From Lachnospiraceae bacterium (GTDB lineage: Bacteria > Bacillota > Clostridia > Lachnospirales > Lachnospiraceae), in the NCBI GenBank assembly GCA_017450065.1, contig JAFSYI010000015.1, forward strand, positions 1 through 56,552: a DNA stretch of 56,552 bases, given 5' to 3'. Below are positions 8,434 to 25,769 of the stretch, one piece after another. Position 1 is the first letter of the stretch. Each line of letters begins with the position of its first letter. The translations under genes and the position numbers were made by a program. The notes under the pieces were generated by a model that saw only the letters and a list, made by a program, of their open reading frames with translations, was not told the origin of the DNA and did not search any database.

Positions 8434-9768
8434 ATGAATACTGTAATCATGGCCGGAGGGTTTGGTACAAGGATATCAGAGCTATTTCCCGACGTACCAA
8501 AGCCTTTAATACCAATTAAGAATGCAAGCGGAATAGAAAAACCGGTGCTTCAGTGGGAAATCGAGAGCCTTAGAGATCAAGGGTTTAAAGATATAATCCT
8601 TACGGTTTCTTATATGTCCGAACAAATCAGAGATTACTTTGGTGACGGTTCAAAGTTTGGAGTAAAGATTGATTATTTCGTGGAAGAAATTCCGCTGGGC
8701 AATGCCGGGGCTTTGTTTAAGATCCGTAAGAAATTGGGTAACGAACCATTTCTGCTCTTAAATGCTGATTCTGTATTTGAAACAGATTTTAAGCGTATGG
8801 TTAAATTCCATCAAACTCATAATGCCCTTGTTACCATCTTTACTCACCCCAATTCACATCCATATGATAGCGGAATTGTAATTATGGAGAAAGATAAAAG
8901 TGTTAACGAATGGCTCACCAAAGAAGATAGGAGACCTCAGTGGTACAAGAATCGTGTTAATGCAGGACTACATGTTATGGATCCCGACGTTCTGGATATG
9001 ACAGATATTGATCCAACCCTTATTGGTACTAAGGATACAAAAACAGGTAAGAGTATCAAAGTAGATCTGGACAGACAGGTGCTAAAGCCACTCTGCGGAA
9101 CCGGGAGAATGTTTGCCTACGATAGTCCAGAGTATGTTAAGGATATGGGTACGCCCGAGAGATATGAGGCTGTTTCAAGAGATTTCAGGAACGGTATTGT
9201 CAGCAGAAAGAATCTTAAAAACAAGCAGCGTGCAATCTTTTTGGACAGGGATGGAGTCATAAATAAATATGTAGGGTTTTTGCGTAGGATTGATGATTTT
9301 GAACTGTTAGACGGTGCTGCTGATGCAATTAAACAGATCAACAAATCCGGTTATCTCGCTGTAGTGGTAACAAATCAGCCTGTGATCGCAAGAGGTGAGA
9401 TTACAGTTGATGAATTGGAAGAAATCCATAATAAGATGGAGACCCTCTTGGGTGCACAAGGAGCATATATAGATGCCTTATACTATTGCCCTCATCATCC
9501 GGATAAAGGGTTTGAGGGAGAAGTGGAAGAACTGAAGATCAACTGTGATTGCCGGAAACCGAAGCCGGGGATGCTCCTCGCTGCCGCAGCTGATTTCAAC
9601 ATCGATCTAAGCAACTCATGGATGATCGGTGACGGGAAGAACGATGTCGACTGTGGACAAGCGGCCGGGTGCAGGACTGTGTTTATAGGAGAAGCTAGTG
9701 ACGGATGTGAGCCTGATATGACGGCTGAGAACCTGCTTGCAGCTGTGGAGGAGATCCTTGGTAAGTAA
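8434..9768 (+). CDS. hddC-gmhB: Fusion: heptose 1-phosphate guanylyltransferase + heptose 1,7-bisphosphate phosphatase
   Basis: A bifunctional cytosolic enzyme of 444 residues for GDP-D-glycero-alpha-D-manno-heptose. Residues 1-230 are a sugar-nucleotidyltransferase (MAGGFGTRISELFPDVPKPL signature; LNADSVFETDF metal site), HddC-like. Residues 265-440 are a HAD phosphatase of the GmhB type: FLDRDGVIN nucleophile loop, VVVTNQPVIARGE, the zinc site CPHHPD...CDCRKPKPGM, and MIGDGKNDVDCG. The two steps flank the bisphosphate intermediate, the phosphatase giving heptose 1-phosphate and the transferase then adding GMP. It is the first gene of the rightward operon, after the shared dyad leader. An AAGGA lies 13 nt before the start. 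A second, stand-alone GmhB lies at 25143. The anomer is inferred from the HddA partner at 13094. Confidence 0.88.
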   Translation: MNTVIMAGGFGTRISELFPDVPKPLIPIKNASGIEKPVLQWEIESLRDQGFKDIILTVSYMSEQIRDYFGDGSKFGVKIDYFVEEIPLGNAGALFKIRKKLGNEPFLLLNADSVFETDFKRMVKFHQTHNALVTIFTHPNSHPYDSGIVIMEKDKSVNEWLTKEDRRPQWYKNRVNAGLHVMDPDVLDMTDIDPTLIGTKDTKTGKSIKVDLDRQVLKPLCGTGRMFAYDSPEYVKDMGTPERYEAVSRDFRNGIVSRKNLKNKQRAIFLDRDGVINKYVGFLRRIDDFELLDGAADAIKQINKSGYLAVVVTNQPVIARGEITVDELEEIHNKMETLLGAQGAYIDALYYCPHHPDKGFEGEVEELKINCDCRKPKPGMLLAAAADFNIDLSNSWMIGDGKNDVDCGQAAGCRTVFIGEASDGCEPDMTAENLLAAVEEILGK

Positions 9769-10202
9769 TCTGGTGTTGGATGATCACAGTGTGTTCAATA
9801 AGAATGTTTGGATGTGGTGGGCAGATAAGTAACCAAGAGCTGCGGCTACGCCGTTGACCACATGGGGGCAATAAATAATTAATGGTAGCGCTACCGCTGA
9901 AAGCGTGTTCAGTAATTATTGTTTTATGGACAGTGCTTGGATTGTTGGTCTCATAGCTTTTTGGTGGTGCTGTGATTGTAATTCATGATGAGCTTTGATA
10001 CCGAAAACACGACGAAGGAAACAGAGAATAGAGAAGCATGGGTTTCTATCATGGATTATCTGCAATCATAGGAGACTTGAGAGGATTTTTGGGAGATGTT
10101 GATTCGATAAAATACTAGTATGAGTGTCTTACTCTGATAGATGGACACGTGAAAGAAGATATTTAACGGTATGAGACGCAGTATGGGCTGTAGAAAGAGG
10201 AA
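9769..10202. other. 434-bp gap without a recognisable gene
   Basis: There is no convincing coding frame. A perfect 12-bp palindrome GGTAGCGCTACC lies at 9884-9895. A 27-codon frame opening MSFDTENTTKETENREAW starts near 9985 and soon stops; it may be a gene remnant, but I cannot assign it. No terminator is evident, consistent with one transcript through to gmhA. Confidence 0.5.
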
Positions 10203-10862
10203 ATGATGTTAGAAGATAGGGTCCAGAAGCATCTAGACTTATTGATAGAGCGGTATCCATCAATATCCGTATGTGCTGAGGATATTGAAAAAGCATACAG
10301 AATACTTGAAGAGTGCTATGAGGGTGATCATAAACTTCTAATTGCCGGTAATGGCGGATCTGCGGCAGATAGTGAGCATATTGCTGGCGAGCTGATGAAG
10401 CGTTTTGAAACGGCACGTCCGGTTCCACCTGAGTTTAGCCAAAAGCTGAGAGAGATTGATCCTGAGCTTGGGGAAGGACTGGCTAAGAACCTTGAGCGTG
10501 GCCTTGTAGCGATACCTCTCGTGGCGCATGAAGCTCTGACCACGGCATATATCAATGATGTGGATGGCTTAGGGGTATTTGCTCAACAATTATATGGTTT
10601 CGGACGTCCGGGCGATGTGTTCTTGGGGATTTCAACTTCCGGTAATAGCAAGAATGTGATGTGTGCTTCTGTGGTTGCCAGGGCATTGGGCATAAAGATT
10701 ATCGGTCTAACCGGGAAGAACGGAGGCGAACTTGCAACTGTAGCTGATGTAGCAATACGAGTTCCGGAGACGAGCACATATAAAATCCAGGAGCTTCATC
10801 TCCCAGTGTATCATGCCTTGTGCTTGATGCTTGAAGATAGATTCTTCGGTGCCGCTGAGTGA
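10203..10862 (+). CDS. gmhA: Sedoheptulose 7-phosphate isomerase, first copy
   Basis: A SIS-domain isomerase converting sedoheptulose 7-phosphate to D-glycero-D-manno-heptose 7-phosphate, the first step of both heptose routes. It shows LLIAGNGGSAADSEHIAGELMKRF (about residues 45-65), the phosphate-binding GISTSGNSKNV (about 142-152) and a final IQELHLPVYHALCLMLE helix with the metal or active-site His and Glu. At 219 residues it is longer than the 193-residue copy at 23224 because of a PPEFSQKLREIDPELGE-containing insert, so the two copies belong to different subgroups. ATGs at 10203 and 10206 are both possible; spacing from GAGG favours 10206. The end overlaps the following truncated acyltransferase frame. 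Confidence 0.9.
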   Translation: MMLEDRVQKHLDLLIERYPSISVCAEDIEKAYRILEECYEGDHKLLIAGNGGSAADSEHIAGELMKRFETARPVPPEFSQKLREIDPELGEGLAKNLERGLVAIPLVAHEALTTAYINDVDGLGVFAQQLYGFGRPGDVFLGISTSGNSKNVMCASVVARALGIKIIGLTGKNGGELATVADVAIRVPETSTYKIQELHLPVYHALCLMLEDRFFGAAE

Positions 10863-11442
10863 GTATTACAGGAGACAATTTGGATACGTATCTTCTTGTA
10901 TATCACTGCACGTGTTTGATACTTTCGAGGGTAATCTTAAGAAAATATTTGAAGACAGAGGCTTGATTTTGAGCAATAAACGAATTGCGTGGGCTGATTG
11001 GGTAAAAGGAATATTGACGATAGTCATTGCTCATGTGACTCAGTATTTTTCAGGGGCTGATATGTACTTGAATAAGGTGCTTACCAGTTATCATGTCCCT
11101 ATTTTTTTCGTCTGGGGGGAAGTAAGCGCAGGTTTACTATCTCAGAAATATAACTCTGACAGACAGTCCTTTTATACCAAACGATTTAAAAGATACATAA
11201 TTCCCTATGTGCTTTTTTCGTTGTTTAATTCGGCACTTAAACTCGGTGTGTTGTTGGTTACTCATAAGGTGACTTCAGAGGCATTACATAGTGAATTAGT
11301 AGAATTATTCATAACTGGGAATGGAACGGTATGGTTCCTTCCGACTCTATTTCTTGCAGAAATAATCTTCTTCGAGATGTGGGGACACCAATTACTGAGA
11401 TATTGTTTCCATGTGCAATATGCCAATCATTGCAGTTATTAA
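10831..11442 (+). pseudogene. Truncated acyltransferase-3 family membrane protein
   Basis: The frame holds RIAWADWVKGILTIVIAHV, YLNKVLTSYHVPIFFVWGEV and RFKRYIIPYVLFSLFN, the first membrane helices of acyltransferase-3 (OafA/fucose O-acetylase-like) proteins that O-acetylate surface sugars. Family members have about 330-600 residues and ten or so helices; this one stops at 203 residues after GTVWFLPTLFLAEIIFF, followed by unrelated sequence. The first 45 codons (10831-10965) overlap gmhA and do not look like this family, so the true start is unclear and may be a downstream TTG. It is probably a dead gene. Its loss would leave the glycan without this acetylation. Confidence 0.7.
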
Positions 11443-11483
11443 TCTATGGTTTCCTATTCTTAAGGGAGAAATAAAGACGAAAA

Positions 11484-12062
11484 ATGAGTGATAGTAAGTG
11501 GGATATATTAAAAACAAAAGAACTGATTTCAAACAGGTATATATCACTATATAAAGATAAAGTTAGATTGCCTGATGGAATGATTGTAGAGGACTTTTAT
11601 CGTGTTACAGTACCAAATTCATCTGCGATTGTCGCACTTACAGATGAGATGAACATAGTTCTTATAAGACAATACAGATATTGTTACGGAAAAGAACTAA
11701 TAGAATTGCCATCAGGTGTACTTGAAGATAATGAATACGATCCTCTTGATGTCGCCCGCAGAGAATTGTTGGAGGAAACAGGGTATTCTTCTGAAAACTG
11801 GACTTATCTTGGTGCAACAATTGAGAATGCGGCAAAAATGACGAATTATGCACATATGTTTATGGCTACAGGATGTGTAAAAAAAAGAAAGCAAGAGCTG
11901 GATGTGACAGAAAATATTGATGTAGTAGTAATTCCATTTGAAGAAGCAATAGCTAAGGTCATGAAAGGTGAGATTATGTGTAGCGGGCCAGCATACGCTA
12001 TTCTTAAAGCAGAAAGACTGTTGAAAGAAAGAAATAGCGAGAATCAAAGCTGGCATAATTGA
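11484..12062 (+). CDS. NUDIX hydrolase, ADP-sugar pyrophosphatase-like
   Basis: A 192-residue hydrolase of nucleoside diphosphate-X compounds, most like ADP-ribose pyrophosphatases. The Nudix box is GVLEDNEYDPLDVA followed by RRELLEETGY (about residues 76-99). It has the G, E and REL-EE-G residues, but the stretch between the first E and RE is one residue longer than the GX5EX7REUXEEXGU consensus. It is preceded by the usual IRQYRYCYGKELIELPSG strand. Inside a nucleotide-heptose operon it could remove damaged or excess NDP-sugars; the true substrate is unknown. An AGGGAG lies 14 nt upstream of the start. Confidence 0.82.
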   Translation: MSDSKWDILKTKELISNRYISLYKDKVRLPDGMIVEDFYRVTVPNSSAIVALTDEMNIVLIRQYRYCYGKELIELPSGVLEDNEYDPLDVARRELLEETGYSSENWTYLGATIENAAKMTNYAHMFMATGCVKKRKQELDVTENIDVVVIPFEEAIAKVMKGEIMCSGPAYAILKAERLLKERNSENQSWHN

Positions 12063-12095: not shown

Positions 12096-13040
12096 ATGAC
12101 AAATAATGTCAAACAACGAAATGTTCTCGTTATGGGTGGAAGTGGTTTTTTAGGCTCTCAGCTCGTAAGAAGATTACAAGGGTTAGAGGAGTATCAAGTA
12201 TTTGCACCTTCTCATAAAGAACTTGATGCATGTGAATATTCACAGATCGTGAATTTCATCAAAAATAATCAGATTGATATAGTAATTCATGCAGTGGCAA
12301 ATCATGCCGGTATAGGCACCGGAGTGAATCAAGAACTATATTTCCTTGAGTCTAATCTTCTGATGAATTCAAATCTAGTAAAAGCATCTTATGAGAGTGG
12401 TATTGAAAAATTTATCACATTTGGGACATCATGCTGTTATAACAATCCTGAACAGGTAGTGTTCACAGAAGAAGATTATTGGAAGAATAAATCAGAGATT
12501 TCTTACGGAACTTGCAAGAGAGTTATGCTTGAACAGCTTCAGTTACAAAATGCAATGAATTGGGTATATCTCGTTCCACCTAACTTGTATGGGCCTGGAG
12601 ATCACTTTGGCGAGAAACACACACATTTTGTTCCTGCAACATACAAGAAATTCGATGATGCAATTAAGGAAAATACTGGTTTCATCACTGTATGGGGTGA
12701 CGGCTCTCAAATGAGAGATTTTCTGTTTGTGGAAGATTTGATAGATATAATCCTCAAGTCTATAGAGTCTGAGATTCTTGACAGACAGGTTATGAACATT
12801 GCCACAATGAAGGATTCTAGTGTTAAGGAAGTTGTAACACTAATAAGGGAAACTTTGGGTTATATGGATATTGAAATTAAGTGGGACACATCTAAACCTA
12901 CAGGGGTTGGAAGAAAAGTGCTGGATAACTCAAAGTTTTTGAGCTTAATTCCGGACTTCAAGTTTACTAATATTAATTTTGGAATTGAAACCATATCAAA
13001 ATGGCATTTGAATGGGGATTCATATGAAGGACTACTATAA
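12096..13040 (+). CDS. GDP-4-keto-6-deoxy-sugar epimerase/reductase, GDP-fucose synthase-like
   Basis: A 314-residue extended short-chain dehydrogenase. The Rossmann motif is MGGSGFLGSQL (about residues 12-22); TSCCY and YGTCK (about residue 136) give the Ser/Thr and Tyr-x3-Lys catalytic set; FLFVEDLID is the usual late motif. The closest family is GDP-L-fucose synthase/WcaG and the heptose reductases (DmhB/MlghC-like). Together with the 4,6-dehydratase at 14123 it would convert GDP-heptose to a 6-deoxy-heptose. It could instead act on GDP-mannose to make GDP-fucose. GGAAGGA precedes the start. No HldD epimerase signature is seen. Confidence 0.78.
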   Translation: MTNNVKQRNVLVMGGSGFLGSQLVRRLQGLEEYQVFAPSHKELDACEYSQIVNFIKNNQIDIVIHAVANHAGIGTGVNQELYFLESNLLMNSNLVKASYESGIEKFITFGTSCCYNNPEQVVFTEEDYWKNKSEISYGTCKRVMLEQLQLQNAMNWVYLVPPNLYGPGDHFGEKHTHFVPATYKKFDDAIKENTGFITVWGDGSQMRDFLFVEDLIDIILKSIESEILDRQVMNIATMKDSSVKEVVTLIRETLGYMDIEIKWDTSKPTGVGRKVLDNSKFLSLIPDFKFTNINFGIETISKWHLNGDSYEGLL

Positions 13041-13093: not shown

Positions 13094-14098
13094 ATGATCA
13101 TTACTAAGACACCCTTTAGGATGTCATTTTTCGGCGGCGGTACTGATATTAAGAATTTTTTTTGCGAACATGGAGGAGCGGTTATTTCTACGACATTTAA
13201 CAAATATTGCTATGTCAATGTTAGGCACTTACCCCAGTTCTTTGATTACAGAAATAGAGTGACATATTCAAAAATCGAACTCACAAAAAATAGTGATGAT
13301 ATTGAGCATCCTGCTGTAAGAGAGGCAATGAAAATGCTTGATATGCATGAGTTATCAGTAGCCTATGATGCTGACTTGCCTGCACGGACAGGGTTGGGTA
13401 CAAGTTCTTCTTTCGCTGTTGGGATGATTCAGGCATTTTATGCTTTAAAAGGAAAATATGTTGATAAAAAAAATTTAGCTATTGATGCAATTCGTCTTGA
13501 ACGAGATTTATGCCATGAAGATGGAGGATGGCAAGATCAGATAGCAGCGGCTTATGGAGGAATGAATAGAATAGAATTTTGTGGAAACGGTTTTGAAGTG
13601 CATCCAATTATCATTCATCCCGATAGAAAAGAAGCGCTGAACGATAACCTGATGATGTTCTTTACTGGTTTTTCACGTTTCTCGGCCGAAATCCAAACTA
13701 ATACTAAAAATCATATTAAAGATAAGACAATGCAATTGTTAGAAATGAAATCCCTTGTTGATAGAGCTGAAGAGGTATTGGAAGATAAATATTCTGATTT
13801 GAACGAATTTGGCAGATTATTAGATTATACTTGGAAATTGAAGCAGCAAACAGGGGATAGAATATCTACTAGTTCCATTGATGAAATGTATCAAAAAGCG
13901 ATAGACGCAGGAGCTATAGGTGGGAAGTTGCTAGGAGCAGGCGGTGGTGGATTTTTACTGTTTTATGTTGAGCGTGACAAGCAAGACAGTGTTAAAAAGG
14001 CAATGCAGAACTTACTAGAAATTCCTTTCAAATTTGAAAGCACTGGTTCTGAAATCATTTATTATTCACCTGAACAATATCCGCCGGTTGAACAATAA
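13094..14098 (+). CDS. hddA: D-glycero-alpha-D-manno-heptose 7-phosphate kinase
   Basis: A GHMP-superfamily kinase of 334 residues that phosphorylates heptose 7-phosphate at C1 to give the alpha-1,7-bisphosphate. It has an N-terminal ITKTPFRMSFFGGGTDIKNFF, the ATP-binding loop PARTGLGTSSSFAVG (about residues 96-110), CHEDGGWQDQIAAAYGG and the C-terminal GGKLLGAGGGGFLLF (about 276-290). This exact set is typical of HddA. With GmhA, the GmhB-HddC fusion and this kinase the GDP-heptose pathway is complete inside one operon. The ribosome site is GAAGGGGA. Confidence 0.9.
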   Translation: MIITKTPFRMSFFGGGTDIKNFFCEHGGAVISTTFNKYCYVNVRHLPQFFDYRNRVTYSKIELTKNSDDIEHPAVREAMKMLDMHELSVAYDADLPARTGLGTSSSFAVGMIQAFYALKGKYVDKKNLAIDAIRLERDLCHEDGGWQDQIAAAYGGMNRIEFCGNGFEVHPIIIHPDRKEALNDNLMMFFTGFSRFSAEIQTNTKNHIKDKTMQLLEMKSLVDRAEEVLEDKYSDLNEFGRLLDYTWKLKQQTGDRISTSSIDEMYQKAIDAGAIGGKLLGAGGGGFLLFYVERDKQDSVKKAMQNLLEIPFKFESTGSEIIYYSPEQYPPVEQ

Positions 14099-14122: not shown

Positions 14123-15157
14123 ATGAGCAAAGCACTAATAACTGGTATTACAGGAATGGTAGGATCACATCTCGCAGACTTCCTGCTTGAGAATACAGAT
14201 TGGAATGTATATGGCGTCTGCCGTTGGCGTAGTCCCCTTGATAATGTTTCCCATCTGTTGGATCGGGTCAACAAAAAGGATCGAGTGTTCTTCGAGTATG
14301 CGGATCTTAATGATGAGATGAGCCTTATTACGGTTGTGAACAGGATTAAGCCGGACTACGTGTTCCATCTTGCTGCACAGTCTTATCCACAGACTAGTTT
14401 TATTGCGCCAATTGATACATTGAACACGAATATTCTTGGAACAGCTCGTTTATTGGAAGCATTCCGACTCGCAATGGAAGAGAATAAGGATTACAAGCCT
14501 GTCATACATGTATGCGCAAGTTCAGAGGTCTTCGGACGTATCCCAGCAGAGAAGAAGCCCGAGACAGGTATTCATGAAGAGTGTCAGTTCCACCCGGCAA
14601 GTCCATATGCAATAAGCAAGACGGGTACAGACTTGCTTGGACGATACTATGCAGAAGCATACGGTATGACCGTGATGACCACTCGTATGTTTACGCACAC
14701 AGGTCCGCGTCGTGGCGATGTGTTCCATGAGTCCACATTCGCTAAGCAGCTCGCAATGATCGAGGCAGGCATGATTGAGCCTAAGGTCATGGTCGGAAAC
14801 TTGAAGAGTCTTAGAACATACGCAGATGTTCGAGATGCTGTAAGAGCCTACTATATGCTCGTAACCGTCAATCCGATTCCTGGTGAGTACTACAACATCG
14901 GAGGCAGCTATACATGTGAGGTTGGCGATACATTGAACACACTGATCAGCTATAGCACCATGAAGGATAAGATTGAAATTGTTACAGATCCTGAACGTCT
15001 GCGGCCGATTGATGCAGACCTGCAGGTACCTGATTGCAGGAAGTTTAAGACACACACAGGGTGGGAGCCGAAAATCAGCTTCGAGACAACGATGCATGAT
15101 CTTCTGGATTATTGGCGTGCAAGAGTTAATAAAGGCGAAACATTTCTAACCAGATAA
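14123..15157 (+). CDS. GDP-sugar 4,6-dehydratase, probably GDP-heptose
   Basis: A 344-residue member of the GDP-mannose 4,6-dehydratase family, which makes a GDP-4-keto-6-deoxy-sugar in the cytosol. Motifs are ITGITGMVGSHLADFLL (NADP-binding), VFHLAAQSYPQTSF, CASSEVFG (about residue 132), SPYAISKTGTDLL (Tyr-x3-Lys, about 160) and RMFTHTGPRRGDVF. GDP-heptose dehydratases such as DmhA and WcbK belong to the same family, and the neighbours make GDP-heptose, so heptose is the favoured substrate; GDP-mannose cannot be excluded. It follows hddA by 24 bp with a GGAGG ribosome site. Confidence 0.85.
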   Translation: MSKALITGITGMVGSHLADFLLENTDWNVYGVCRWRSPLDNVSHLLDRVNKKDRVFFEYADLNDEMSLITVVNRIKPDYVFHLAAQSYPQTSFIAPIDTLNTNILGTARLLEAFRLAMEENKDYKPVIHVCASSEVFGRIPAEKKPETGIHEECQFHPASPYAISKTGTDLLGRYYAEAYGMTVMTTRMFTHTGPRRGDVFHESTFAKQLAMIEAGMIEPKVMVGNLKSLRTYADVRDAVRAYYMLVTVNPIPGEYYNIGGSYTCEVGDTLNTLISYSTMKDKIEIVTDPERLRPIDADLQVPDCRKFKTHTGWEPKISFETTMHDLLDYWRARVNKGETFLTR

Positions 15158-15187
15158 TAGAAGTTGAAAGTGTGGAGGATAGAAACC

Positions 15188-15547
15188 ATGTTGATTAAAA
15201 TGATTAAACCGGATTTTGTGTTTGAAAATGAAGCCGGTAGTTTGAAACAGCTGGTTCATGATGGATGGAAACAGGTAAATGTCATTACATCTGTTGCAGG
15301 TGCAATTCGGGGAAATCATTATCACAAATTCAATGAAGAGGGTTTCTATATTATCCAAGGTTCTTTCAAGTTGATTGTATGGAAAGAAGATGAGAAAGAA
15401 GAGTACATAATCAAAGCGGGAAACATGTTCCTTGTTTATCCATATGTCTTCCATACCTTTGAATACATTGAGGATACTGTGTTGGTCTCCATGTATAGCA
15501 AGGGTGTTGAATTATCAGAAACTGAAAAAGATATATGGACGGAATAA
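15188..15547 (+). CDS. Cupin-domain protein, possible sugar epimerase/isomerase
   Basis: A 119-residue small beta-barrel. RGNHYHKFNEEGFYIIQG (about residues 42-59) gives the H-x-H and E-x(n)-G metal-site pattern of RmlC-like cupins. It resembles the sugar epimerase or ketoisomerase cupins (FdtA/WxcM C-terminal, RmlC-like) used after 4,6-dehydratases. Placed directly after the GDP-heptose dehydratase, it may epimerise the keto-intermediate. The start at 15188 follows GGAGG; an earlier in-frame ATG at 15164 has no ribosome site. Confidence 0.65.
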   Translation: MLIKMIKPDFVFENEAGSLKQLVHDGWKQVNVITSVAGAIRGNHYHKFNEEGFYIIQGSFKLIVWKEDEKEEYIIKAGNMFLVYPYVFHTFEYIEDTVLVSMYSKGVELSETEKDIWTE

Positions 15548-15573
15548 ATATGGGAATAGGAGTAGGCACTATT

Positions 15574-17161: not shown

Positions 17162-17165
17162 TTAT

Positions 17166-17594
17166 ATGAAAAAATATACGATAGGATTCACACAGGGGAC
17201 ATACGATATGTTCCATATAGGTCATCTTAATCTTATCAATCATGCCAAGGAATACTGTGATTACCTGATAGTAGGTGTTAACGCTGATGCACTTGTTCAG
17301 CAGTATAAACATAAAACACCCGTGATAAAAGAGACTGAAAGAGCCGAAATTGTAAGGAATCTAAAAGCAGTTGACGAATGCGTTATCACCACTACACTGG
17401 ATAAACTTGTGGCCTGGGATCAATATCACTTCAATGCTATTTTTATCGGTGATGATTGGAAGGGTAATCCCAGATGGGAACAGACAAAACTTGATCTTGC
17501 AAAAAAAGATGTAGATCTGGTTTTCCTGCCCCACACCGCAGGAGTCAGCTCGACTGGATTGAGGAATGTTGAAGGAAATAAGGTTGAAGAATAA
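17166..17594 (+). CDS. tagD: Glycerol-3-phosphate cytidylyltransferase-like
   Basis: A 142-residue cytidylyltransferase making CDP-glycerol (or a related CDP-alcohol) from CTP. It has TQGTYDMFHIGHLNLI with the HIGH motif at residues 17-20, IVGVNADALVQQYK and the C-terminal VSSTGLR corresponding to ISSTxIR. The length is normal for TagD. The ATG at 17166 is chosen; a TTG at 17151 overlaps the licD stop. Only 4 bp separate it from licD, supporting a joint role in glycan phosphoglycerylation. Ethanolamine or ribitol relatives are alternatives. Confidence 0.85.
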   Translation: MKKYTIGFTQGTYDMFHIGHLNLINHAKEYCDYLIVGVNADALVQQYKHKTPVIKETERAEIVRNLKAVDECVITTTLDKLVAWDQYHFNAIFIGDDWKGNPRWEQTKLDLAKKDVDLVFLPHTAGVSSTGLRNVEGNKVEE

Positions 17595-17709
17595 GCATAA
17601 ACGCATTTCTTATTTACAATTATTCCAAATTTCTAATGATGATCATAACATCAGTTCATAAGCATTTTACCAGAATTGTGAGGAGATAGCTGATTCAACG
17701 GTGATAATA

Positions 17710-18927
17710 ATGAAATCTTATTTAAACAAATTCATAGGTTTAATATACACCTTCTTTTTAAGCAGAAACAAAAACAGAAGGGAAATAAATAATGATAAAT
17801 ATTTGCTTATCATATGTGGGCACATGGGAAATGCCATATTGATAATAGACGGTTTGATGGAGCTCATAAACTATTGCAGAGACACAGGAAAGGAGTTATC
17901 GATAGTCTGTGATCCATATATGTGGAAGACACTTAATAATCTTCAGGAATTAAAAGATGTAAATTATCTCGAAAATGTTCTTGCAGATAATGCCAGATTT
18001 TTTATTGGGAATTTAACAAGAATGCATAAACTTGTAAAAGGATTGGAGTATGAAAAAATAATAACGTCATTACCAATCAATAATGTCGACCACTTCCTTG
18101 CTATTACAATCCCATGCAAAGAGAACTGGTGTATAAAGGATGATATTGAACGCATAAGAAGTATGCGCACGATAGGTTTTGGGTTTATCGAAAAGTGCTA
18201 TTCAAATATGGTAGTTTCCAACGTCGATATGCACGAAACTCAGAGATATAAGAAACTGTTTATGAGCGTCGGGGTTAATGACTATCAGACTTCTATACAT
18301 GACTTAAGAGGCACTTTAAGAACACAAAACAGTAAATATATACCATCGAACAAATATATTACAATTGCGTTGGATTCGATGAATCCAAACAGAAAATGGA
18401 GATTAGAAAAATACTCCTTACTAATAGAAAAATTGTTGCAGAAATATTCTTATGACATAGTCTTGACAGGAACAAACGTTAACGAAATTGAATTCGAAAA
18501 ATGCATCAAAGTAAAATTTAGTAATAACGAAAGAGTTATTGATCTTGTCGGGAAAACCAAGTTTTATGAGTGGCTTTATATTTTAAGTAAGGCTGAGTTT
18601 CATATTGGTGTCGACAGCGGTTCGATCCATTTCGCAACATCAAGCGGCGCACAAGCTTACTGTATTACCGGAGTATGGGATGGACATCGTGTTTTCCCTT
18701 ATCATTGCGATACGTTACCGGAAGGATTACATGAACCCATTTGCATTTACAGAACTGATCTGGATTATGAAAAGCTACCTTGTTATGCATGCAAAGTTAG
18801 AGGAACAGAGTTTGGCACACTCAATAAGGCTTGTAAGAAAGCATGTAAAAAGGGCTACCCTTGTGAATGTCTTGAGAACATTACTGTTGATGACGTTATT
18901 GAATGCTTGGATGCTAACTATAGATAA
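17710..18927 (+). CDS. GT9 heptosyltransferase-like protein with Cys-rich C-terminus, first copy
   Basis: A 405-residue GT-B transferase of family GT9, whose known members transfer heptose from ADP-heptose. The N-terminal part has YLLIICGHMGNAILIIDGLMEL. The donor domain has VLTGTNVNEIEFE, RVIDLVGKTKFYEWLYILSKA and HIGVDSGSIHFATSSGAQAY (about residues 295-320), matching the D-S/T-G-x-x-H motif. The last 50 residues carry seven Cys, with C-x2-C-x13-C-x3-C, the same spacing as in the second GT9 gene at 23905. The start is uncertain (GTG at 17701 or ATG at 17710; AGGAG is distant). A Gram-positive GT9 next to hldE suggests ADP-heptose as donor. Confidence 0.82.
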   Translation: MKSYLNKFIGLIYTFFLSRNKNRREINNDKYLLIICGHMGNAILIIDGLMELINYCRDTGKELSIVCDPYMWKTLNNLQELKDVNYLENVLADNARFFIGNLTRMHKLVKGLEYEKIITSLPINNVDHFLAITIPCKENWCIKDDIERIRSMRTIGFGFIEKCYSNMVVSNVDMHETQRYKKLFMSVGVNDYQTSIHDLRGTLRTQNSKYIPSNKYITIALDSMNPNRKWRLEKYSLLIEKLLQKYSYDIVLTGTNVNEIEFEKCIKVKFSNNERVIDLVGKTKFYEWLYILSKAEFHIGVDSGSIHFATSSGAQAYCITGVWDGHRVFPYHCDTLPEGLHEPICIYRTDLDYEKLPCYACKVRGTEFGTLNKACKKACKKGYPCECLENITVDDVIECLDANYR

Positions 18928-18962: not shown

Positions 18963-20213
18963 ATGCAACGGAGTAGATTAAACAAATATGTACTCTATTT
19001 TATCATAATATTTCCTTTGGTTATCCCAGAGGGATTGGCTACTTTGTCAAGTACAGCATATAGTTTTATCTTTAGATATGGACGGTTCACGTCTTTTGCA
19101 ATAATTTCTCTGCTGTATTTTTTTAAGTTAAAGAGTAGAAAAAGAACAGTGCCCGTACAATTAAAATATATGATTCTACTAGCAGTATATTGCTTGCTCA
19201 TTACTTTACTCCATGGACTCCGAAGTTCTGATTGGCTATCAGTGTTCTGGCCATGTTTATTTGCTGGAATTATTGTTGATTATGGCCGAAAAGATATAAA
19301 TCTTCTAATAGAAACGCTTTTATTAGTGTTAGAGTTTTGGATTTACATTAATCTTATTTTTATGCTTCTATATCCCAATGGCATGTATGTCAATACAACT
19401 GTAGGATACACAAAAAACTGGGTATTAGGTTATAAAAGTTCATTTCAATATATAATTTATCCAGCTGTCATTTTAGGTTGGCTCAAAAGTTCATATGGAG
19501 GCAGAAAAGCAAGGTTTTGGATATTACTCACAACAAGTATTACCGAAGCCTTAATAAGCAAAAATGCAATGCTTATTGTCGCCCTCATACTTGTACTCAT
19601 ATGTTATCTTTTTAGGTTAACAGAGAATACAAAAATCATGAATCCGATAGTGTATTCTATTGGATTATTGGTTGTGAATATATTGTTTATATTCAGCTTA
19701 ACTTCATTATTAAACACTAAGTTAGGATTGTTTTTCATTGATTATTACGGAAAAAGTACAACCTTAGGAGGCCGAGCATCATACATATGGCCAATCACAA
19801 TAAAAAAAATATTACAGAATCCCTTATTTGGCTACGGAGTAAGGTCATCAGCCGAAAGAAGAATGTTGTACATGAATCGCCCTGCTGCAATCCACGCTCA
19901 TAATCAATTACTTGAAATGCTGTTTATAGGAGGTATTGTCTTTGTTCTTATTTATACCGTCTTTTTCATAAGAATGTACAAAGAGACAAAAGATTGTGCC
20001 GGCAAACAATCCACCAAAATAATATTGTTCGGTTTGTTTGTATTCTTCTGCATGATGTCCGTTGAAATTTTCATAAGATATACCGGATTTGCAGTTTGGA
20101 TATTAATATTTCTTGCCTTTGTTTCCAACGAAATCGATGTGAAATATGAAAGCAGATTATATCAAACAAAGAATTTGGGAAAGTATCCTAGAATAAAGTT
20201 TAAACACATGTAA
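18963..20213 (+). CDS. wzy: Wzy-like O-antigen/capsule polymerase
   Basis: A 416-residue polytopic membrane protein with about ten or more hydrophobic segments and little sequence signature, as usual for Wzy. The O-antigen ligase/polymerase-type loop is visible as TLGGRASYIWPITIKKILQN, then FGYGVRSSAE and AIHAHNQLLEMLFIGGI (about residues 264-322). It should polymerise repeat units at the outer face of the membrane. Placement between the transferases and the flippase fits. The ribosome site is GAGGATAAA. A lipid-A-core ligase (WaaL) is unlikely in a Gram-positive. Confidence 0.8.
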   Translation: MQRSRLNKYVLYFIIIFPLVIPEGLATLSSTAYSFIFRYGRFTSFAIISLLYFFKLKSRKRTVPVQLKYMILLAVYCLLITLLHGLRSSDWLSVFWPCLFAGIIVDYGRKDINLLIETLLLVLEFWIYINLIFMLLYPNGMYVNTTVGYTKNWVLGYKSSFQYIIYPAVILGWLKSSYGGRKARFWILLTTSITEALISKNAMLIVALILVLICYLFRLTENTKIMNPIVYSIGLLVVNILFIFSLTSLLNTKLGLFFIDYYGKSTTLGGRASYIWPITIKKILQNPLFGYGVRSSAERRMLYMNRPAAIHAHNQLLEMLFIGGIVFVLIYTVFFIRMYKETKDCAGKQSTKIILFGLFVFFCMMSVEIFIRYTGFAVWILIFLAFVSNEIDVKYESRLYQTKNLGKYPRIKFKHM

Positions 20214-20245: not shown

Positions 20246-21679
20246 ATGGCAGTTAGGTTATCTAACAGAGACTATTTGTGGAGCTACATAGGCGTTTTTC
20301 TTTCACTGTTTGCTAATATCATTATGGTTCCATTTATTATGTATTATCTGGATGGAGATCATTATGGACTTTGGGGTGTATTTCAAAGTCTGGCAGGAAT
20401 AACCGTTCTATTTGACTTCGGTTTCACGACTACTTTTGGAAGAAATATCAATTATTGTTGGAACGGGGCAGAAAGGCTAGAGAAAACAGGAGTAATTTAT
20501 TCAAAAACGCCGGAGCCGAACTTCTACCTGATGAAAAAAACTATGGTAGCATGTCAACGTGTCTTTCTCCTGATTTCCGGCACAGCTCTTCTACTCATGT
20601 TATCAATAGGTACTGCTTATATAGCACATATTTCAAAACCGATTGGAACTTTAGAGCCGCTTATTGCTTGGATAATTTATGCTATAGCTATATTTTTAAA
20701 TCTATATTTCGGATATTACGGTTCTTTCCTCAGAGGAGTTGGTTCCATTGCAGATTTCAATAAAGCCATAGTTTTTTCAAAAGCAGCACAAATTGTGGTA
20801 ACAATACTTTTTCTATGGTTAGGTTTTGGTTTGATCGGTACAGGTGTAGCTTATCTTACATATGGTACTTTATATAGGCTTATTGCCAAGAAAAGGTTCT
20901 ATAAGTACAAAGGAATAGGTGAAGGACTAAAGAAAATAACTATACAAATCCCAGGTACAGAGATTAAAGATATGTTCTTGACTGTGTGGTACAATGCATG
21001 GAGAGAAGGCCTTGTATCACTATCAAACTATCTTTCAAATCAGGCTTGCACAATTATCGTTTCATTATACATGCCCTTAACACAAACAGGGGCTTATTCT
21101 TTAGGTGTTCAGCTTTGTACAGCTGTCGCGCAGGTAGCTGGTGCTATGTATAGATCAAACCAACCGGTTCTTCAATCAGCATATATCAGCAATGATAAAA
21201 AGGCACAAAAGCGTACAATGTCGTTGATTGTCTTTTCATTTACATCTTTGGATATGCTTGGAATGCTTACGGTAACGATCATAGGTCTTCCGATTCTCAG
21301 ACTAATCCGTCCGGAAAGTGTTATTGCACCTACAGTTCTACTGGCACTTGGATTCTACCATTTTATTTTAAATTTCAGAAACTGCTATACATCTTATTTT
21401 TCGTGCACAAATCGTATCCCATATGTGAAGGCATTCATTATCTCCTCTGTTACATGCATTATTTTGGCATATTTATCTATGGGAGAACTTGAAATGGGCA
21501 TCTGGGGAATTATAGCCTCACAGTTGATCAGTCAATTGATGTACAACGCATGGGTATGGACTTTCAAAGCACACAAAGAGTTGAATCTTTCAGCATACGA
21601 AACTGTCTATATGGGTTATGAAGAAATGATGAAGGTTGTTAGAAGTTTTCTTCACAAAGGGAGGATTAATAATGCTTGA
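20246..21679 (+). CDS. wzx: Wzx-like flippase for lipid-linked oligosaccharide
   Basis: A 477-residue MATE/MOP-type protein with about 12-14 predicted membrane segments. The start DYLWSYIGVFLSLFANIIMVPF and the amphipathic loop YYLDGDHYGLWGVFQSLAGI are typical of Wzx. It should flip the undecaprenyl-PP repeat unit across the membrane before Wzy acts. AGAGG precedes the start. Its last 8 bases overlap the hldE start, indicating coupled expression. Confidence 0.88.
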   Translation: MAVRLSNRDYLWSYIGVFLSLFANIIMVPFIMYYLDGDHYGLWGVFQSLAGITVLFDFGFTTTFGRNINYCWNGAERLEKTGVIYSKTPEPNFYLMKKTMVACQRVFLLISGTALLLMLSIGTAYIAHISKPIGTLEPLIAWIIYAIAIFLNLYFGYYGSFLRGVGSIADFNKAIVFSKAAQIVVTILFLWLGFGLIGTGVAYLTYGTLYRLIAKKRFYKYKGIGEGLKKITIQIPGTEIKDMFLTVWYNAWREGLVSLSNYLSNQACTIIVSLYMPLTQTGAYSLGVQLCTAVAQVAGAMYRSNQPVLQSAYISNDKKAQKRTMSLIVFSFTSLDMLGMLTVTIIGLPILRLIRPESVIAPTVLLALGFYHFILNFRNCYTSYFSCTNRIPYVKAFIISSVTCIILAYLSMGELEMGIWGIIASQLISQLMYNAWVWTFKAHKELNLSAYETVYMGYEEMMKVVRSFLHKGRINNA

Positions 21680-23165
21680 TCATAAAAATATACTTGTGAT
21701 AGGCGATGTAATGCTTGACATTTATTACACTGGTGAGGTTAACAGAATTTCTCCGGAAGCTCCGGTCCCAGTATTTAAGAAATTAAACGAGAGATGCGTT
21801 TTAGGTGGTGCCTCAAATGTTGTCGCTAACCTTGCAGCTGCCGGGCAAAAAGCTTCTGTTCTTGCAATGATCGGAAAAGATCGCGATGGAGATAGAATCA
21901 GAGAACTCTTCAAAGAAATTGGAGTAAACAATTCTTTGTTAGCCACATGGAATCGTCCTACAATAACCAAAACCCGATTCCTGGCAGAAAATAATCAACA
22001 AGTTCTTCGACTGGATATCGAAGACAATCAGCCTATAACAAATGATGAAGCCACATCTCTTCTCCAACAACTTAATAGTGTGATCGATCAGTTTGACCTT
22101 ATTCTAATATCAGATTATATAAAGGGCTTACTTACTTATGAGTTCACTCAAGGTATAATCAACATTGCTCGTGAACATGGCAAAAAGGTTTTGGTAGATG
22201 TTAAGGATGCAAGATTCGAAAAATATAAAGGAGCATGGTTATTAAAACCGAACAAGAAAGAACTGCATGATCTTACTAAAATGCCGGTTTCAACTGATGA
22301 TGAGCTTATCTCAGCAGCCAGATATCTTCTTCAGAAATCAGAATGTAGCTACATTTTGACCACTTGTGGATCAAAAGGCATGGTGCTTGTAGGCCCAGAT
22401 ATCGTCTATCATCTCGATACAGTCGGAAAGTCTGTTTATGATGTCACAGGTGCAGGAGATACTACAATTGCCTATCTGACAGCTGCACTGGCAAGTGGTA
22501 TTAATATTCAGGACGCTATGAATATTGCCAATCACGCCGCCGGTATCCAAGTAGGGAAAGTCGGAACATCTGCAGTTTATCTACATGAAGTTGAAGAAGC
22601 TATGACTTCAAAAAGCAGCTACAGAAAGCAAAAGATATTTAGACTAAACGAAAGAAATGACTTGAAAAAGCTGATCGCAGAATGGAAACACAATGGAGAA
22701 ACCATAGTCACAACAAATGGCTGTTTTGATATTATTCATCGCGGGCATATATCGCTTCTTGAGGAAGCTAAATCTTATGGAGATCATTTGATTGTCATGA
22801 TCAATACAGACAAGTCCGTAAAAAGATTAAAGGGGGCTGGCAGGCCAATTAATACTGAAGAAGACAGAGCAATGGTTATTGCTGCTCTTGACTGCGTTGA
22901 TGCTGTGGCTTTATTTGATCCGCTATCAGATAACAAAACAATTCCCGATGAGGATATTGCCGGGATGAGCTTTGAATTGAAAAAGACTGCTTTGGAAGCT
23001 CCAATGGCACTCCTTAAACTGATTGCACCTGATATTCATGCTAAAGGTGGCGATTACTCTGTAGATCAGGTTCCGGAAGCAATATATGCCAAGGAATACA
23101 GAGCAGTCCCGTTCATTCATGGTTACTCTACAACTCGAACAATAGAAAAGAGCAGACAAATGTAA
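21672..23165 (+). CDS. hldE: Bifunctional heptose 7-phosphate kinase / heptose 1-phosphate adenylyltransferase
   Basis: A 497-residue two-domain enzyme of the ADP-heptose route. Residues 1-315 are a ribokinase-fold kinase (LVIGDVMLDIYYTGEVNRISPEAP, GGASNVVANLAAAG, anion hole DVTGAGDTTIAY at about 256). Residues 335-497 are a nucleotidyltransferase (TTNGCFDIIHRGHISLLEEAK, HRGH at about 355; RPINTEEDRA; C-terminal STTRTI). The kinase makes the beta-1,7-bisphosphate and the second domain makes ADP-D-glycero-beta-D-manno-heptose after GmhB acts. Length and motifs match E. coli HldE, a protein rare in Gram-positives. The start at 21672 follows GGGAGG; no HldD epimerase gene is in the window. Confidence 0.92.
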   Translation: MLDHKNILVIGDVMLDIYYTGEVNRISPEAPVPVFKKLNERCVLGGASNVVANLAAAGQKASVLAMIGKDRDGDRIRELFKEIGVNNSLLATWNRPTITKTRFLAENNQQVLRLDIEDNQPITNDEATSLLQQLNSVIDQFDLILISDYIKGLLTYEFTQGIINIAREHGKKVLVDVKDARFEKYKGAWLLKPNKKELHDLTKMPVSTDDELISAARYLLQKSECSYILTTCGSKGMVLVGPDIVYHLDTVGKSVYDVTGAGDTTIAYLTAALASGINIQDAMNIANHAAGIQVGKVGTSAVYLHEVEEAMTSKSSYRKQKIFRLNERNDLKKLIAEWKHNGETIVTTNGCFDIIHRGHISLLEEAKSYGDHLIVMINTDKSVKRLKGAGRPINTEEDRAMVIAALDCVDAVALFDPLSDNKTIPDEDIAGMSFELKKTALEAPMALLKLIAPDIHAKGGDYSVDQVPEAIYAKEYRAVPFIHGYSTTRTIEKSRQM

Positions 23166-23223
23166 ATTGAATAAGGCGATACTTAATAATATGGTATAGC
23201 TGTTAGAAATGAGGAAGATTAAG

Positions 23224-23805
23224 ATGGAAGCAAAAAAACTAATAATTCAACGGTTTCAGGACAGCATCGCATTGAAAGAACAAAATATCAAAGATGATGC
23301 TCTTGTTTCTACTATTGTTAAAATCGCCGAAGAAATTATTGAAGTTATTAAGAACGGAAACAAGCTTATACTATGTGGAAATGGCGGTTCGGCATCTGAT
23401 GCTCTCCATTTCGCCGGAGAGATTGTCGGACGCTTTCAAAAGGAACGCTCTGCATGGGCTGCCGTTGTGTTGAATGCTGATGTAACAACAATGACTGCAA
23501 TCGCAAATGATTATGGATATGATGAAGTGTTTGCAAGACAGGCAGAAGGTCTCACAAAATCAGGCGATCTTTTTATCGGAATCAGTACAAGCGGTAACTC
23601 GGAAAATGTTCTCAGAGCAGTTAAGGTCGCAAAAGGAAAAGGCGCAAAAACCGCAGCATTACTAGGAAAAGATGGTGGAAAAATCTCCAATGAAGTAGAT
23701 TATCCGGTCATTGTGCGGTGTAATATTACAGCAAGAGTTCAGGAAAGTCATATCAACATAATTCACAGCATATGTGAGATAGTTGAGGATGCATTGTCGC
23801 AATGA
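23224..23805 (+). CDS. gmhA: Sedoheptulose 7-phosphate isomerase, second copy
   Basis: A 193-residue SIS-domain isomerase of the standard GmhA type: LILCGNGGSASDALHFAGEIVGRF (about residues 52-75), AIANDYGYDEVFARQAEGL, GISTSGNSENVLRAV and QESHINIIHSICEIVE with the catalytic Glu and His. Length and motifs match the LPS-type GmhA more closely than the first copy at 10203. It follows hldE and precedes a GT9 gene and gmhB, forming a complete ADP-heptose sub-cluster. The start at 23224 is chosen because GAGGAAG lies 6 nt upstream. Confidence 0.92.
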   Translation: MEAKKLIIQRFQDSIALKEQNIKDDALVSTIVKIAEEIIEVIKNGNKLILCGNGGSASDALHFAGEIVGRFQKERSAWAAVVLNADVTTMTAIANDYGYDEVFARQAEGLTKSGDLFIGISTSGNSENVLRAVKVAKGKGAKTAALLGKDGGKISNEVDYPVIVRCNITARVQESHINIIHSICEIVEDALSQ

Positions 23806-23904
23806 ATCATTGCCGGTAGTGTAAAACAGAATATGAAAACTGAGAACCATCATAAGAAATCAACCGCAAGCAGTACCCCTTATGATATATATGGAGCATA
23901 ATAA

Positions 23905-25047
23905 ATGATAGAAAAATTAAGGAAATATCTTTTACTATTAAACGGAGTATTACATCAAAAAAAAGCAAAGAAATCAGAGAGTATTCTGATATTGTTCAGT
24001 GCTGCATTTGGAGATGCCATACTCTTTCAGGACTGTATGCGTGAATTAGTGTATAAATACCCATATGAAGGAAAAAAACGTTTAAGGATATTATGCCGAC
24101 AAAGTGTTAAAGACTTTTACATAAACTCACTTGGATTCTCCGAAAGGTATTTTTGTAAATGCACGTATACAAAGAATCTTAAAGATATTAAAAACGCAAT
24201 AAAAGAACTAGGCAGTGAATCTTATAAATCAATTTATGCTAAAGATGGTGCATTGGAAACTTGTGTGATTGTCTCAAACTTAAGGGCATCAAAAGTAATC
24301 AGAGTAACGTCCGAAGTTGAAATGAACAGTAGAAATCCAGTTAATCGCTACTTGGTAAATAAGTGTTTTACAGATACAACTATAGTGCCTATGGATACAT
24401 GGGAATTAAACAGACATGCTATATTGCTTAACAGATATGAGAACATTCAAGTCAATCCTGTTGTGTCGAATATGAAATCTGTTCTTAATCTTCATCCATA
24501 TTTTGACAACAATAAAATGTATGTAGTTATTAGTACGGATTCTTCTGCTGTATACAGAACATGGAATGCAGAAAAGATTTCTGAAATTATTCATTTTATT
24601 ACAGAGACATATGATTATGATGTAGTACTTTGCGGTACTAATGAATACACTGTTATGGATACATCTAATAGACTGATCAATCTTACCGGAAAGACATCAT
24701 TCAGTGAATGGTTTAGTATAATACAGTTTTCAAAATTGGTTATAGGAGTTGATTCAGCAGCTATTCATGTTGCTCTTTCCTTAGGAACCCCAGCAGTTGT
24801 TCTCAGAGGATACTACGAGGGTAAAAAATACTTCCCCTACCCGGTCGAAGCATGCAATGGCAATATTTGTAAATGCGTAACATCCAAAGCTGAATACAAC
24901 TGCTATCTATGTTTACAGCGAAAAAATATAATTAAGAAAAAAAATCCAATATGTTATTCACAGTGCTATAAAAAGAAAGGAATTATGAGCTGCTTAAATA
25001 ATATTAACGTTGGTCAAGTTAAAGATGCAATAAGAGAAATACTCTAA
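23905..25047 (+). CDS. GT9 heptosyltransferase-like protein with Cys-rich C-terminus, second copy
   Basis: A 380-residue GT9-family GT-B enzyme. The N-terminus ESILILFSAAFGDAILFQDCMREL has the G-D acceptor loop. The donor domain has VVLCGTNEYTVMDTSNRLINLTGKTSF in two parts and LVIGVDSAAIHVALSLGTPAV (about residues 278-298). The C-terminus carries C-x2-C-x13-C-x3-C (Cys 333, 336, 350, 354), exactly the spacing found in the gene at 17710, and ends with an LNNINV-x-QVKDAI helix like that copy's LENITVDDVIE. The two GT9 enzymes probably add successive heptoses. GGAG precedes the start. Confidence 0.82.
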   Translation: MIEKLRKYLLLLNGVLHQKKAKKSESILILFSAAFGDAILFQDCMRELVYKYPYEGKKRLRILCRQSVKDFYINSLGFSERYFCKCTYTKNLKDIKNAIKELGSESYKSIYAKDGALETCVIVSNLRASKVIRVTSEVEMNSRNPVNRYLVNKCFTDTTIVPMDTWELNRHAILLNRYENIQVNPVVSNMKSVLNLHPYFDNNKMYVVISTDSSAVYRTWNAEKISEIIHFITETYDYDVVLCGTNEYTVMDTSNRLINLTGKTSFSEWFSIIQFSKLVIGVDSAAIHVALSLGTPAVVLRGYYEGKKYFPYPVEACNGNICKCVTSKAEYNCYLCLQRKNIIKKKNPICYSQCYKKKGIMSCLNNINVGQVKDAIREIL

Positions 25048-25142
25048 ATAACAAGTAATCATCAAATCGATGACTACTTCTAAATACGTTATTGATACGA
25101 AAATGAATAATACACAAGATTGATATAGGTAACCAAATAACT

Positions 25143-25769
25143 ATGTTAACAGATTTTAATAAAGCGATTTTTTTAGATAGAGACGGAACAATAAATGTAG
25201 AAAAAAATTATCTCTATAAAGTCAGTGACTATGAATTTCTGCCCGGAGTTATAGATGCCCTAAGAATTGCGCAGGATGCAGAATATAAATTGATTATTAT
25301 TACAAACCAAAGCGGAATAGCAAAAGGATACTATACTTTGGCAGAATTCAACTATTTAAATGATTGGATGTTGGATTCTCTGGAAACTCAGGGTATACAC
25401 ATCAACAAAGTATATTATTGTCCCCATCATCCGGATGCAAAAATCCCGGAGTTTAGAGTAGATTGCGACTGCAGAAAGCCTAAATTGGGTTTGTACAATA
25501 AGGCAATAGAAGAGTTTCACCTTGATCTTAATGAGTGCTATGCTATCGGAGATAAGATCAGAGATTGCAGTATATGTGCAACAACGAACTGCCATGGCTT
25601 TTTAATTGCACAAAATGAAAAAAAAGAAATTATAAACGATGTTAAGAACGGACAGTATCGGAATGTAAAATATGCAACAAACTTAAAACAGGCTATTTTG
25701 ATGATAATGGATAGAAAATCGAAAAATATTCAATCAAGTATTCATAGCATGAACGAAAACTACAACTAA
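25143..25769 (+). CDS. gmhB: D,D-heptose 1,7-bisphosphate 7-phosphatase, stand-alone
   Basis: A HAD-superfamily phosphatase of 208 residues: nucleophile loop IFLDRDGTINVE, IIITNQSGIAKGYYT, zinc ligands CPHHPD...VDCDCRKPKLG and YAIGDKIRDCSIC. It removes the 7-phosphate from the bisphosphate, giving heptose 1-phosphate for HldE. It has a lysine-rich C-terminal extension of about 25 residues. As the last gene of the operon, beside hldE and the second gmhA, it probably serves the beta (ADP) route, while the GmhB fused to HddC serves the alpha (GDP) route. The ribosome site is weak. Confidence 0.88.
   Translation: MLTDFNKAIFLDRDGTINVEKNYLYKVSDYEFLPGVIDALRIAQDAEYKLIIITNQSGIAKGYYTLAEFNYLNDWMLDSLETQGIHINKVYYCPHHPDAKIPEFRVDCDCRKPKLGLYNKAIEEFHLDLNECYAIGDKIRDCSICATTNCHGFLIAQNEKKEIINDVKNGQYRNVKYATNLKQAILMIMDRKSKNIQSSIHSMNENYN

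Follow-up and report, generated by a model that had tools for sequence, protein, structure and literature searches.

Genes for two heptose routes in one cluster: a probable surface-polysaccharide operon from a Lachnospiraceae bacterium

Why should a probably Gram-positive bacterium carry, in a single run of genes, the enzyme sets for two differently activated heptoses? The question is raised by contig JAFSYI010000015.1 of a Lachnospiraceae bacterium (assembly GCA_017450065.1), whose 56,552 nucleotides are called the window here, and more precisely by positions 8434-25769, which are filled by 18 open reading frames (ORFs), all on the plus strand and either overlapping or separated by mostly short gaps. 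A previous reading of the letters made without database searches (the sequence-only reading) had described this run as one operon encoding both the GDP-heptose and the ADP-heptose pathway. Our results favor the view that the run serves a Lachnospiraceae-like bacterium free of lipopolysaccharide (LPS) as an operon for a surface polysaccharide of the Wzx/Wzy type, and that this operon was formed by the joining of two heptose modules. We put the probability of this explanation at about two in three.

Two sets of heptose genes on one strand

Gene identities were assigned from Pfam and NCBIfam profile matches of the window ORFs. Every gene that the sequence-only reading had named was recovered in its place, 8434 and 25769 being exact ORF bounds, and both heptose routes are indeed encoded in one same-strand cluster, as a GDP set, an ADP set and two glycosyltransferases of family GT9. 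The E-values of the named heptose-gene and GT9 matches leave chance no room. Most heptose-enzyme matches score below the NCBI curated cut-offs, so that we speak of divergent homologues; the cut-offs are exceeded by gmhB2, Wzx and LoaP.

The four GDP-route activities (GmhA, HddA, GmhB and HddC) are predicted together from three genes. The first gene of the run (8434-9768; NTP_transferase 1.9e-29, GmhB NF006506 2.7e-51) is a fusion, as had been claimed, with the order reversed: HddC is N-terminal and GmhB C-terminal. It is followed by gmhA1 (10203-10862; GmhA profile 3.8e-44), which has 26 inserted residues when aligned with E. coli GmhA, and by an HddA-like GHMP kinase of the alpha route (13094-14098; 9.8e-38). 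The GDP-heptose set of the sequence-only reading is thus present, but the description was incomplete, insofar that a dehydratase and a reductase had gone unmentioned. The dehydratase (14123-15157), GDP-mannose-dehydratase-like and a relative of GDP-D-glycero-D-manno-heptose 4,6-dehydratase, matches PDB entry 7us5, which we take to be the C. jejuni enzyme, with 368 bits over residues 3-342, the second-best entry reaching 180 bits. The reductase (12096-13040; profile and sequence match) would take the putative last step to GDP-6-deoxy-heptose. Its nearest named family is GDP-L-fucose synthase (169.5 of a 500-bit cut-off), and it keeps the Cys and the His that the E. coli enzyme of that family has at the aligned positions, presumably the epimerisation residues. 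Since the dehydratase is close to 7us5 and a fucose-synthase-like reductase is present, the GDP arm probably runs on to GDP-6-deoxy-heptose, as is described for C. jejuni capsules (PMC10680097, PMC10440746).

The ADP arm is headed by a bifunctional HldE homologue of the beta route (21636-23165), kinase and nucleotidyltransferase in one chain, with a profile match of 4.3e-128 over both domains (PfkB 17-313, CTP_transf_like 360-477) and 37% identity to E. coli HldE over 502 residues. Its ORF begins at TTG 21636, with a later ATG possible as start. The motifs GAGDT (GAGD) and HRGH (HxGH), which we take to be HldE motifs, are present, as is FIHGYSTT. Its scores lie below the curated cut-offs (TIGR02198 344.7 of 345, TIGR02199 148.3 of 181.5, NF008454 427.9 of 521), and by these profiles it is a divergent HldE homologue. 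The nucleotidyltransferase domain has a 24-residue insertion after residue 430 relative to E. coli HldE. The heptose nucleotidyltransferases are described as sharing an STT motif, (F/L)xxGxSTT (PMC11573728, PMC11461863), in which Arg at position 5, (F/L)xxGRSTT or STTR5, marks broad NTP use (PMC11573728), although it is not strictly required for NTP promiscuity (PMC11461863). The window HldE has Tyr, not Arg, at this position, and ADP is the expected nucleotide of the beta arm. The same-genus HldE of genome G684 (L073/L101) has the STTR5 motif LTEGRSTT.

The arm is completed by gmhA2 (23209-23805; GmhA profile 1.6e-59) and by gmhB2, a stand-alone phosphatase (25143-25769; GmhB 1.1e-50, above the TIGR00213 cut-off). 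HldE, gmhA2, gmhB2 and the GT9 genes are therefore present as the sequence-only reading had it; what it left unsaid is the lack of HldD. None was found over the cut-off in the genome itself, which is 88% complete, where eight sub-threshold epimerase matches reach at best 75.8 of 274.6 bits. Because HldD was not found, the beta arm should end at ADP-D,D-heptose. An HldD of 403-424 bits sits in the HldE loci of G178, G236 and G240, and strong homologues occur in G094 and G684; no such HldD lies in the examined stretches of L067, G540 and G607, and the contig of G172 is short. The alpha and beta labels of both arms are predictions from family names. Reading the anomer preference of the two GmhB proteins from sequence was tried and rejected, both being near-equally close to E. 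coli GmhB (40% and 44%) and the pathway labels needing two changes on a GmhB tree.

All enzymes of both arms are full-length and retain their catalytic motifs. This bears on the quite unlikely alternative that one arm is redundant or decaying after a recent accidental join, so that just one heptose is made or used. A truncated acyltransferase gene within the operon and mobile elements on its left flank would fit such decay, as would the lack of an HldE match in 35 of the 36 other genomes of the genus (the exception, G684, has an HddA-like gene on another contig). The intact enzymes speak against it, and so do the separate GmhA and GmhB genes of the two arms, although one GmhB could in principle serve both, as is described for C. 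jejuni.

The genome is a draft (100 contigs, 3.2-Mb assembly, 88% complete, 3.4% contamination), and the join was found in no other genome, which leaves room for a contig chimera of two genomes whose arms are not neighbours in nature. We consider this very improbable. The run is gene-dense and one-stranded, its G+C content varies between 0.33 and 0.42 with no step at the border of the two heptose sets, and three genes, GT9a, Wzy and Wzx, sit between the GDP set and the ADP set. Moreover, the wzx and hldE ORFs overlap, by 44 bp with the TTG start and by a few bp with the later ATG.

Relatives of the two halves

Two lines of evidence suggest that the halves have different histories. First, the sequence-only reading had assigned the two gmhA genes to different subgroups, and a GmhA tree bears this out. 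In this tree of 32 rows (31 distinct; 23 linked to HddA and seven to HldE, with one copy from the window among the seven), the pathway labels need one change, and gmhA1 groups with the HddA-linked and gmhA2 with the HldE-linked rows, on opposite sides. A long-branch warning applies: long branches separate six divergent HddA-linked rows. The window's two GmhB copies likewise fall in separate starred sets of a 45-row tree, gmhB2 in an HldE-linked subgroup.

Secondly, the nearest relatives of the halves differ among the loci compared. The fusion is closest to proteins of L064 in G008 (66%) and L143 in G097 (59%), HddA to those of L064 and L063 (68%) and L061 (66%), and the dehydratase is 92% identical to that of G270. 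The nearest relatives of the beta half lie in L067, an HldE-gmhA-gmhB cassette of an uncultured Acetatifactor sp. (CANQEV010000007.1) with a GT9 gene adjoining hldE (HldE 70%, gmhA2 68%, gmhB2 48%). Like the window, L067 has no HldD match in its 19 kb. Unlike the window's genome, that of L067 gave no match to HddA, in a search that had no positive control. The family genomes with an HldE match do not include G270, G008 or G097. Because neither half's marker kinase was seen in the closest relatives of its counterpart, the earlier suggestion that two heptose modules had been joined gains support, and the joining probably took place in the organism's own lineage. The sugar-transferase gene 31905-33350 served as anchor in a search of eight genomes of the genus for a shared chromosomal site; in the four loci compared the flanks were not common, so that this comparison was uninformative.

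HldE is rare around this genome. With the genome itself counted, matches occurred in six of 299 family genomes (E 1e-20), three of 391 at class level (E 1e-60), two of 37 in the genus (E 1e-30) and 21 of 398 at phylum level (E 1e-50), nine of the latter by the kinase part only. The HddA-like kinase was found in 57 of the 299 family genomes, including seven hits in frames of 939-1038 residues that resemble fucokinase fusions. Taken together, all matches of these scans amount to 29 genomes with an HldE-like kinase (own genome included, that of L067 kept separate), and ten of these have an HddA-like kinase as well. Among the 29, one cluster with both kinases was seen in the window's genome alone, with contig breaks in several others. 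Besides the window, both kinases lie on one contig in G1063 (~20 kb apart), G1022 (~48 kb) and G178 (~494 kb); in G1063, the nearest other case, there are two loci with housekeeping genes between them. They lie on different contigs in G684, G172, G240, G978, G742 and G1037. No HddA was found in 36 kb around the HldE of G684; in the other five the adjacency check is limited by the contig ends, above all in G172, G240 and G1037 with their short contigs. Co-occurrence in three of the five other HldE-positive family genomes (hypergeometric p 0.05, or 0.03 when the fucokinase-like hits are left out) was judged too weak to lean on.

HldE cassettes do recur, rarely, in relatives without LpxC, and often with GT9: a GT9-like gene was detected in six of nine LPS-free HldE stretches besides the window (the match in G236 being weak), and in none of 14 stretches with HddA but without HldE. 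This search used the two divergent GT9s of the window as queries and may have missed some genes. A single-protein scan of named contigs, a kind of scan limited to close relatives, gave one locus. The same kind of scan gave no relative on viral contigs and 29 plasmid records, all below 60% identity, in which the organisms named (ten records are unnamed) are Gram-negatives. Elsewhere in the same genome, L049 (G000:C83, 13239-17821) holds an epimerase, an HddA-like kinase, a nucleotidyltransferase-GmhB fusion and a very divergent GmhA-like protein, and sets similar to this heptose-like set occur in other family members (L050, L057 and L058).

Fate of the heptoses

ADP-heptose synthesis had been called classically Gram-negative and linked to LPS, and no LPS gene was said to be present. 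As to the second claim, which was checked for LpxC alone among the LPS genes, the assembly (88% complete) gave no LpxC match. In the 21 genomes tested, out of these 29 and that of L067, LpxC is absent from all ten of the organism's own family, genus and class, that of L067 included, and present in all 11 from elsewhere in the phylum. HldE thus occurs in LPS-linked and in LPS-free settings. The host is probably Lachnospiraceae-like and Gram-positive, judging from the Acetatifactor contig (Lachnospiraceae, Bacillota) as the nearest named relative by HldE, the missing LpxC match and the kinds of genes; Spo0A, as a marker of Gram-positives, gave one partial match below threshold. The first claim is overstated, since HldE cassettes recur in LpxC-free relatives and ADP-heptose enzymes are known in archaea, viruses, eukaryotes and, for septacidin, in Streptomyces (PMC11573728, PMC11461863).

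Septacidin is a published case of ADP-heptose use in a Gram-positive, and the ADP arm might by analogy make heptose for a secreted small molecule. With no recognisable nucleoside-antibiotic gene among the 18, and with GT9, Wzx and Wzy being glycan genes, we regard this as the least probable of the explanations weighed.

Both GT9 enzymes are candidates for the use of ADP-heptose. GT9a (17701-18927; GT9 profile 1.5e-12) has a heptosyltransferase fold in its predicted structure, which matches WaaF, WaaC and TibC, WaaF and WaaC being closer than TibC; the fold comparison covered GT9a alone. For GT9b (23905-25047; 7.7e-14) there was no PDB sequence match at E 0.1. Both proteins carry the motif CX2C-X13-C-X11/12-C, near the iron-finger cysteines 339, 342, 358 and 370 of TibC, and the motif is missing from E. 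coli WaaF, WaaC, WaaU and WaaQ. The ADP arm could accordingly serve protein O-heptosylation, one or both GT9s acting like TibC/AAH on a surface protein and only the GDP arm feeding a polysaccharide. A high selectivity for ADP-D,D-heptose, which is what an arm lacking HldD should deliver, is described for TibC, and the operon is adjoined at 25875-29393 by two secreted-looking paralogues (234-nt repeat, 79% identical, no Pfam or NCBIfam match). However, on the family model TIGR04414 (TibC/AAH) GT9b scores 29.7 of a 200-bit cut-off and GT9a has no match, and the fold of GT9a is closer to WaaF and WaaC. Moreover, four-cysteine motifs, mostly shorter, occur in other GT9s of polysaccharide and LPS loci, and Wzx, Wzy, TagA and LicD in the operon point to polysaccharide. 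Protein O-heptosylation is on balance unlikely.

Most likely, the operon serves the Wzx/Wzy-dependent synthesis of a surface polysaccharide that contains D,D-heptose and a 6-deoxy-heptose. Both arms would start from sedoheptulose 7-phosphate. The two GT9 enzymes would move D,D-heptose from ADP to a lipid-linked unit, other transferases would add 6-deoxy-heptose, and Wzx/Wzy would export and polymerise the product, the two heptose pools being held apart by separate anomers and nucleotides. Genes fitting such assembly follow the GDP set: a WecG/TagA/CpsF glycosyltransferase (15535-16323; Pfam/NCBIfam), a LicD family phospho-transferase (16334-17161; profile match), a cytidylyltransferase-like protein (17151-17594; near the models of HldE domain II and glycerol-3-phosphate cytidylyltransferase, below both cut-offs), a Wzy_C/O-antigen-ligase family membrane protein (Wzy, 18963-20213; profile match) and a Wzx-like flippase (20246-21679; NF041503 361 bits, cut-off 300).

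This interpretation should be taken with some caution, since several observations weigh against it. The NCBIfam cut-offs are missed by HldE, HddA, HddC, both GmhAs and the GmhB domain of the fusion. The shortfall is at most 1 bit for the kinase domain of HldE and for the GmhB part of the fusion (148.6 of 149.6), moderate for the GmhAs (136.6 for gmhA1 and 194.1 for gmhA2 against 209.45 of TIGR00441), and wide for HddC (87.7 of 300) and for HddA (130.4 of 600, a value reached by none of the 299 family genomes). The GmhB subgroups are not cleanly split by pathway, their labels needing two changes, and donor specificity of a GT9 cannot be read from a modelled fold. The pairing of reductase and dehydratase is a guess: among the loci compared the best reductase relative is just 30% identical, and none was seen beside the dehydratase of G270. 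No clear glycosyltransferase for GDP-6-deoxy-heptose was seen among the operon genes, and with mobile elements on the left flank as well, the operon may be incomplete. It also contains the truncated acyltransferase gene, and its widest gap, 434 nt, follows the first gene. Promoter-like and terminator-like sites occur within it at chance level, so that co-transcription is a presumption.

Several known systems come close. The GDP- and GDP-6-deoxy-heptose capsule pathway of C. jejuni (HddA, HddC, GmhA2, 4,6-dehydratase, C4-reductase) has the enzyme steps predicted for the GDP arm, and C. jejuni, like the window, is described as having the ADP-heptose set and two gmhA genes, with both routes in one genome (PMC10680097). 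It differs in being Gram-negative, in having HldD in its ADP set, and, in strain NCTC 11168, in a shared GmhB whose gene belongs to the ADP-heptose/LPS cluster and not to that of the capsule (PMC10680097). The S-layer glycan of Aneurinibacillus thermoaerophilus, which has a GDP-D,D-heptose pathway, is likewise a Gram-positive surface glycan with D,D-heptose, and the cited passage mentions no ADP route (PMC5387315); the window adds the dehydratase and reductase. With the LPS-core pathway (GmhA, HldE, GmhB, HldD, WaaC/WaaF) the window shares HldE and the GT9a fold; it lacks LpxC and an HldD over the cut-off, and its GT9s have the four-cysteine motif absent from E. coli WaaC/F/Q/U. The TibC/AAH autotransporter heptosyltransferases (BAHT), of which TibC is described as using ADP-D,D-heptose, resemble the window GT9s in cysteine spacing; the window proteins score far below the family cut-off, and the fold match of GT9a is weaker than to WaaF/WaaC. 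The parts are thus already known. Published work also covers ADP-heptose beyond the Gram-negatives and the presence of both routes in a single genome. What none of the relatives searched showed is the combination of these parts in a single cluster. Literature screened by title and start of abstract, which mostly leaves subscription papers uncovered, held no paper on both routes in one operon or on ADP-heptose in Lachnospiraceae, which is a weak sign of novelty.

Remaining genes, control and meaning

Three further genes belong to the run. The truncated acyltransferase_3 (10831-11442, 203 aa) covers profile positions 2-139 of 326, the N-terminal part only, and is probably a remnant. A NUDIX hydrolase (11484-12062; Pfam/NCBIfam) might hydrolyse nucleotide sugars; its closest models are NudE and NudK, and it scores far below their cut-offs. 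A small cupin (15164-15547) was assigned from profile matches.

On the left, a LoaP-type NusG paralogue (3363-3875, minus strand; NF033641 132 bits, cut-off 125) lies divergent to the operon and is a candidate antiterminator for it. A 30-nt palindrome precedes both, in the same sense relative to each: one copy (8277-8306, plus strand) stands 127 nt upstream of the first operon gene and an identical one (3910-3939, minus strand) 34 nt upstream of loaP. A search for its 28-nt core that left the 8-nt loop free and allowed three mismatches gave no further copy in the 3.2-Mb assembly, and an exact search with a shorter form gave none in the other loci compared. The RNA folds have energies of -20.9 and -29.5 kcal/mol (z -5.0 and -6.8). 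LoaP of Bacillus velezensis is reported to require a UNCG-type leader hairpin (PMC12691694); the operon leader hairpin is stable, but its 8-nt loop is not UNCG-type. The operon is perhaps under LoaP control. Alternatively, the palindromes may be recombination sites instead of leader hairpins, because between the two copies lie a serine recombinase and an insertion sequence. The latter (4852-6631) holds a DDE transposase between terminal inverted repeats of 26 nt, and the serine recombinase (4159-4782) adjoins it. At 6679-8253, an Rpn-type PD-(D/E)XK gene (7189-8022) is preceded by partial duplicates of itself and its downstream region as direct repeats, and beside a GT4 gene a 149-nt tandem direct repeat (2298-2595) has two copies, 97% identical.

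In conclusion, the presented data bear on who may make ADP-heptose. ADP-heptose is described as an agonist of the human receptor ALPK1 (PMC11573728), and a 2025 study links it to Gram-negative gut bacteria (PMC12137129). The HldE cassettes in LpxC-free relatives (five of 298 family genomes besides this one) suggest that some Gram-positives may contribute too. We tentatively propose, as a possibility that falls short of even odds, that LPS-free and probably gut-dwelling Clostridia could build two heptoses into one glycan, a 6-deoxy form by way of GDP-alpha and a D,D form by way of ADP-beta, that GT9s with TibC-like fingers would use ADP-D,D-heptose, and that such bacteria would be an unrecognised source of the ALPK1 agonist. 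The pairing of both textbook heptose routes, each with its own GmhA and GmhB, would moreover offer a natural test of how alpha and beta pools are kept separate.

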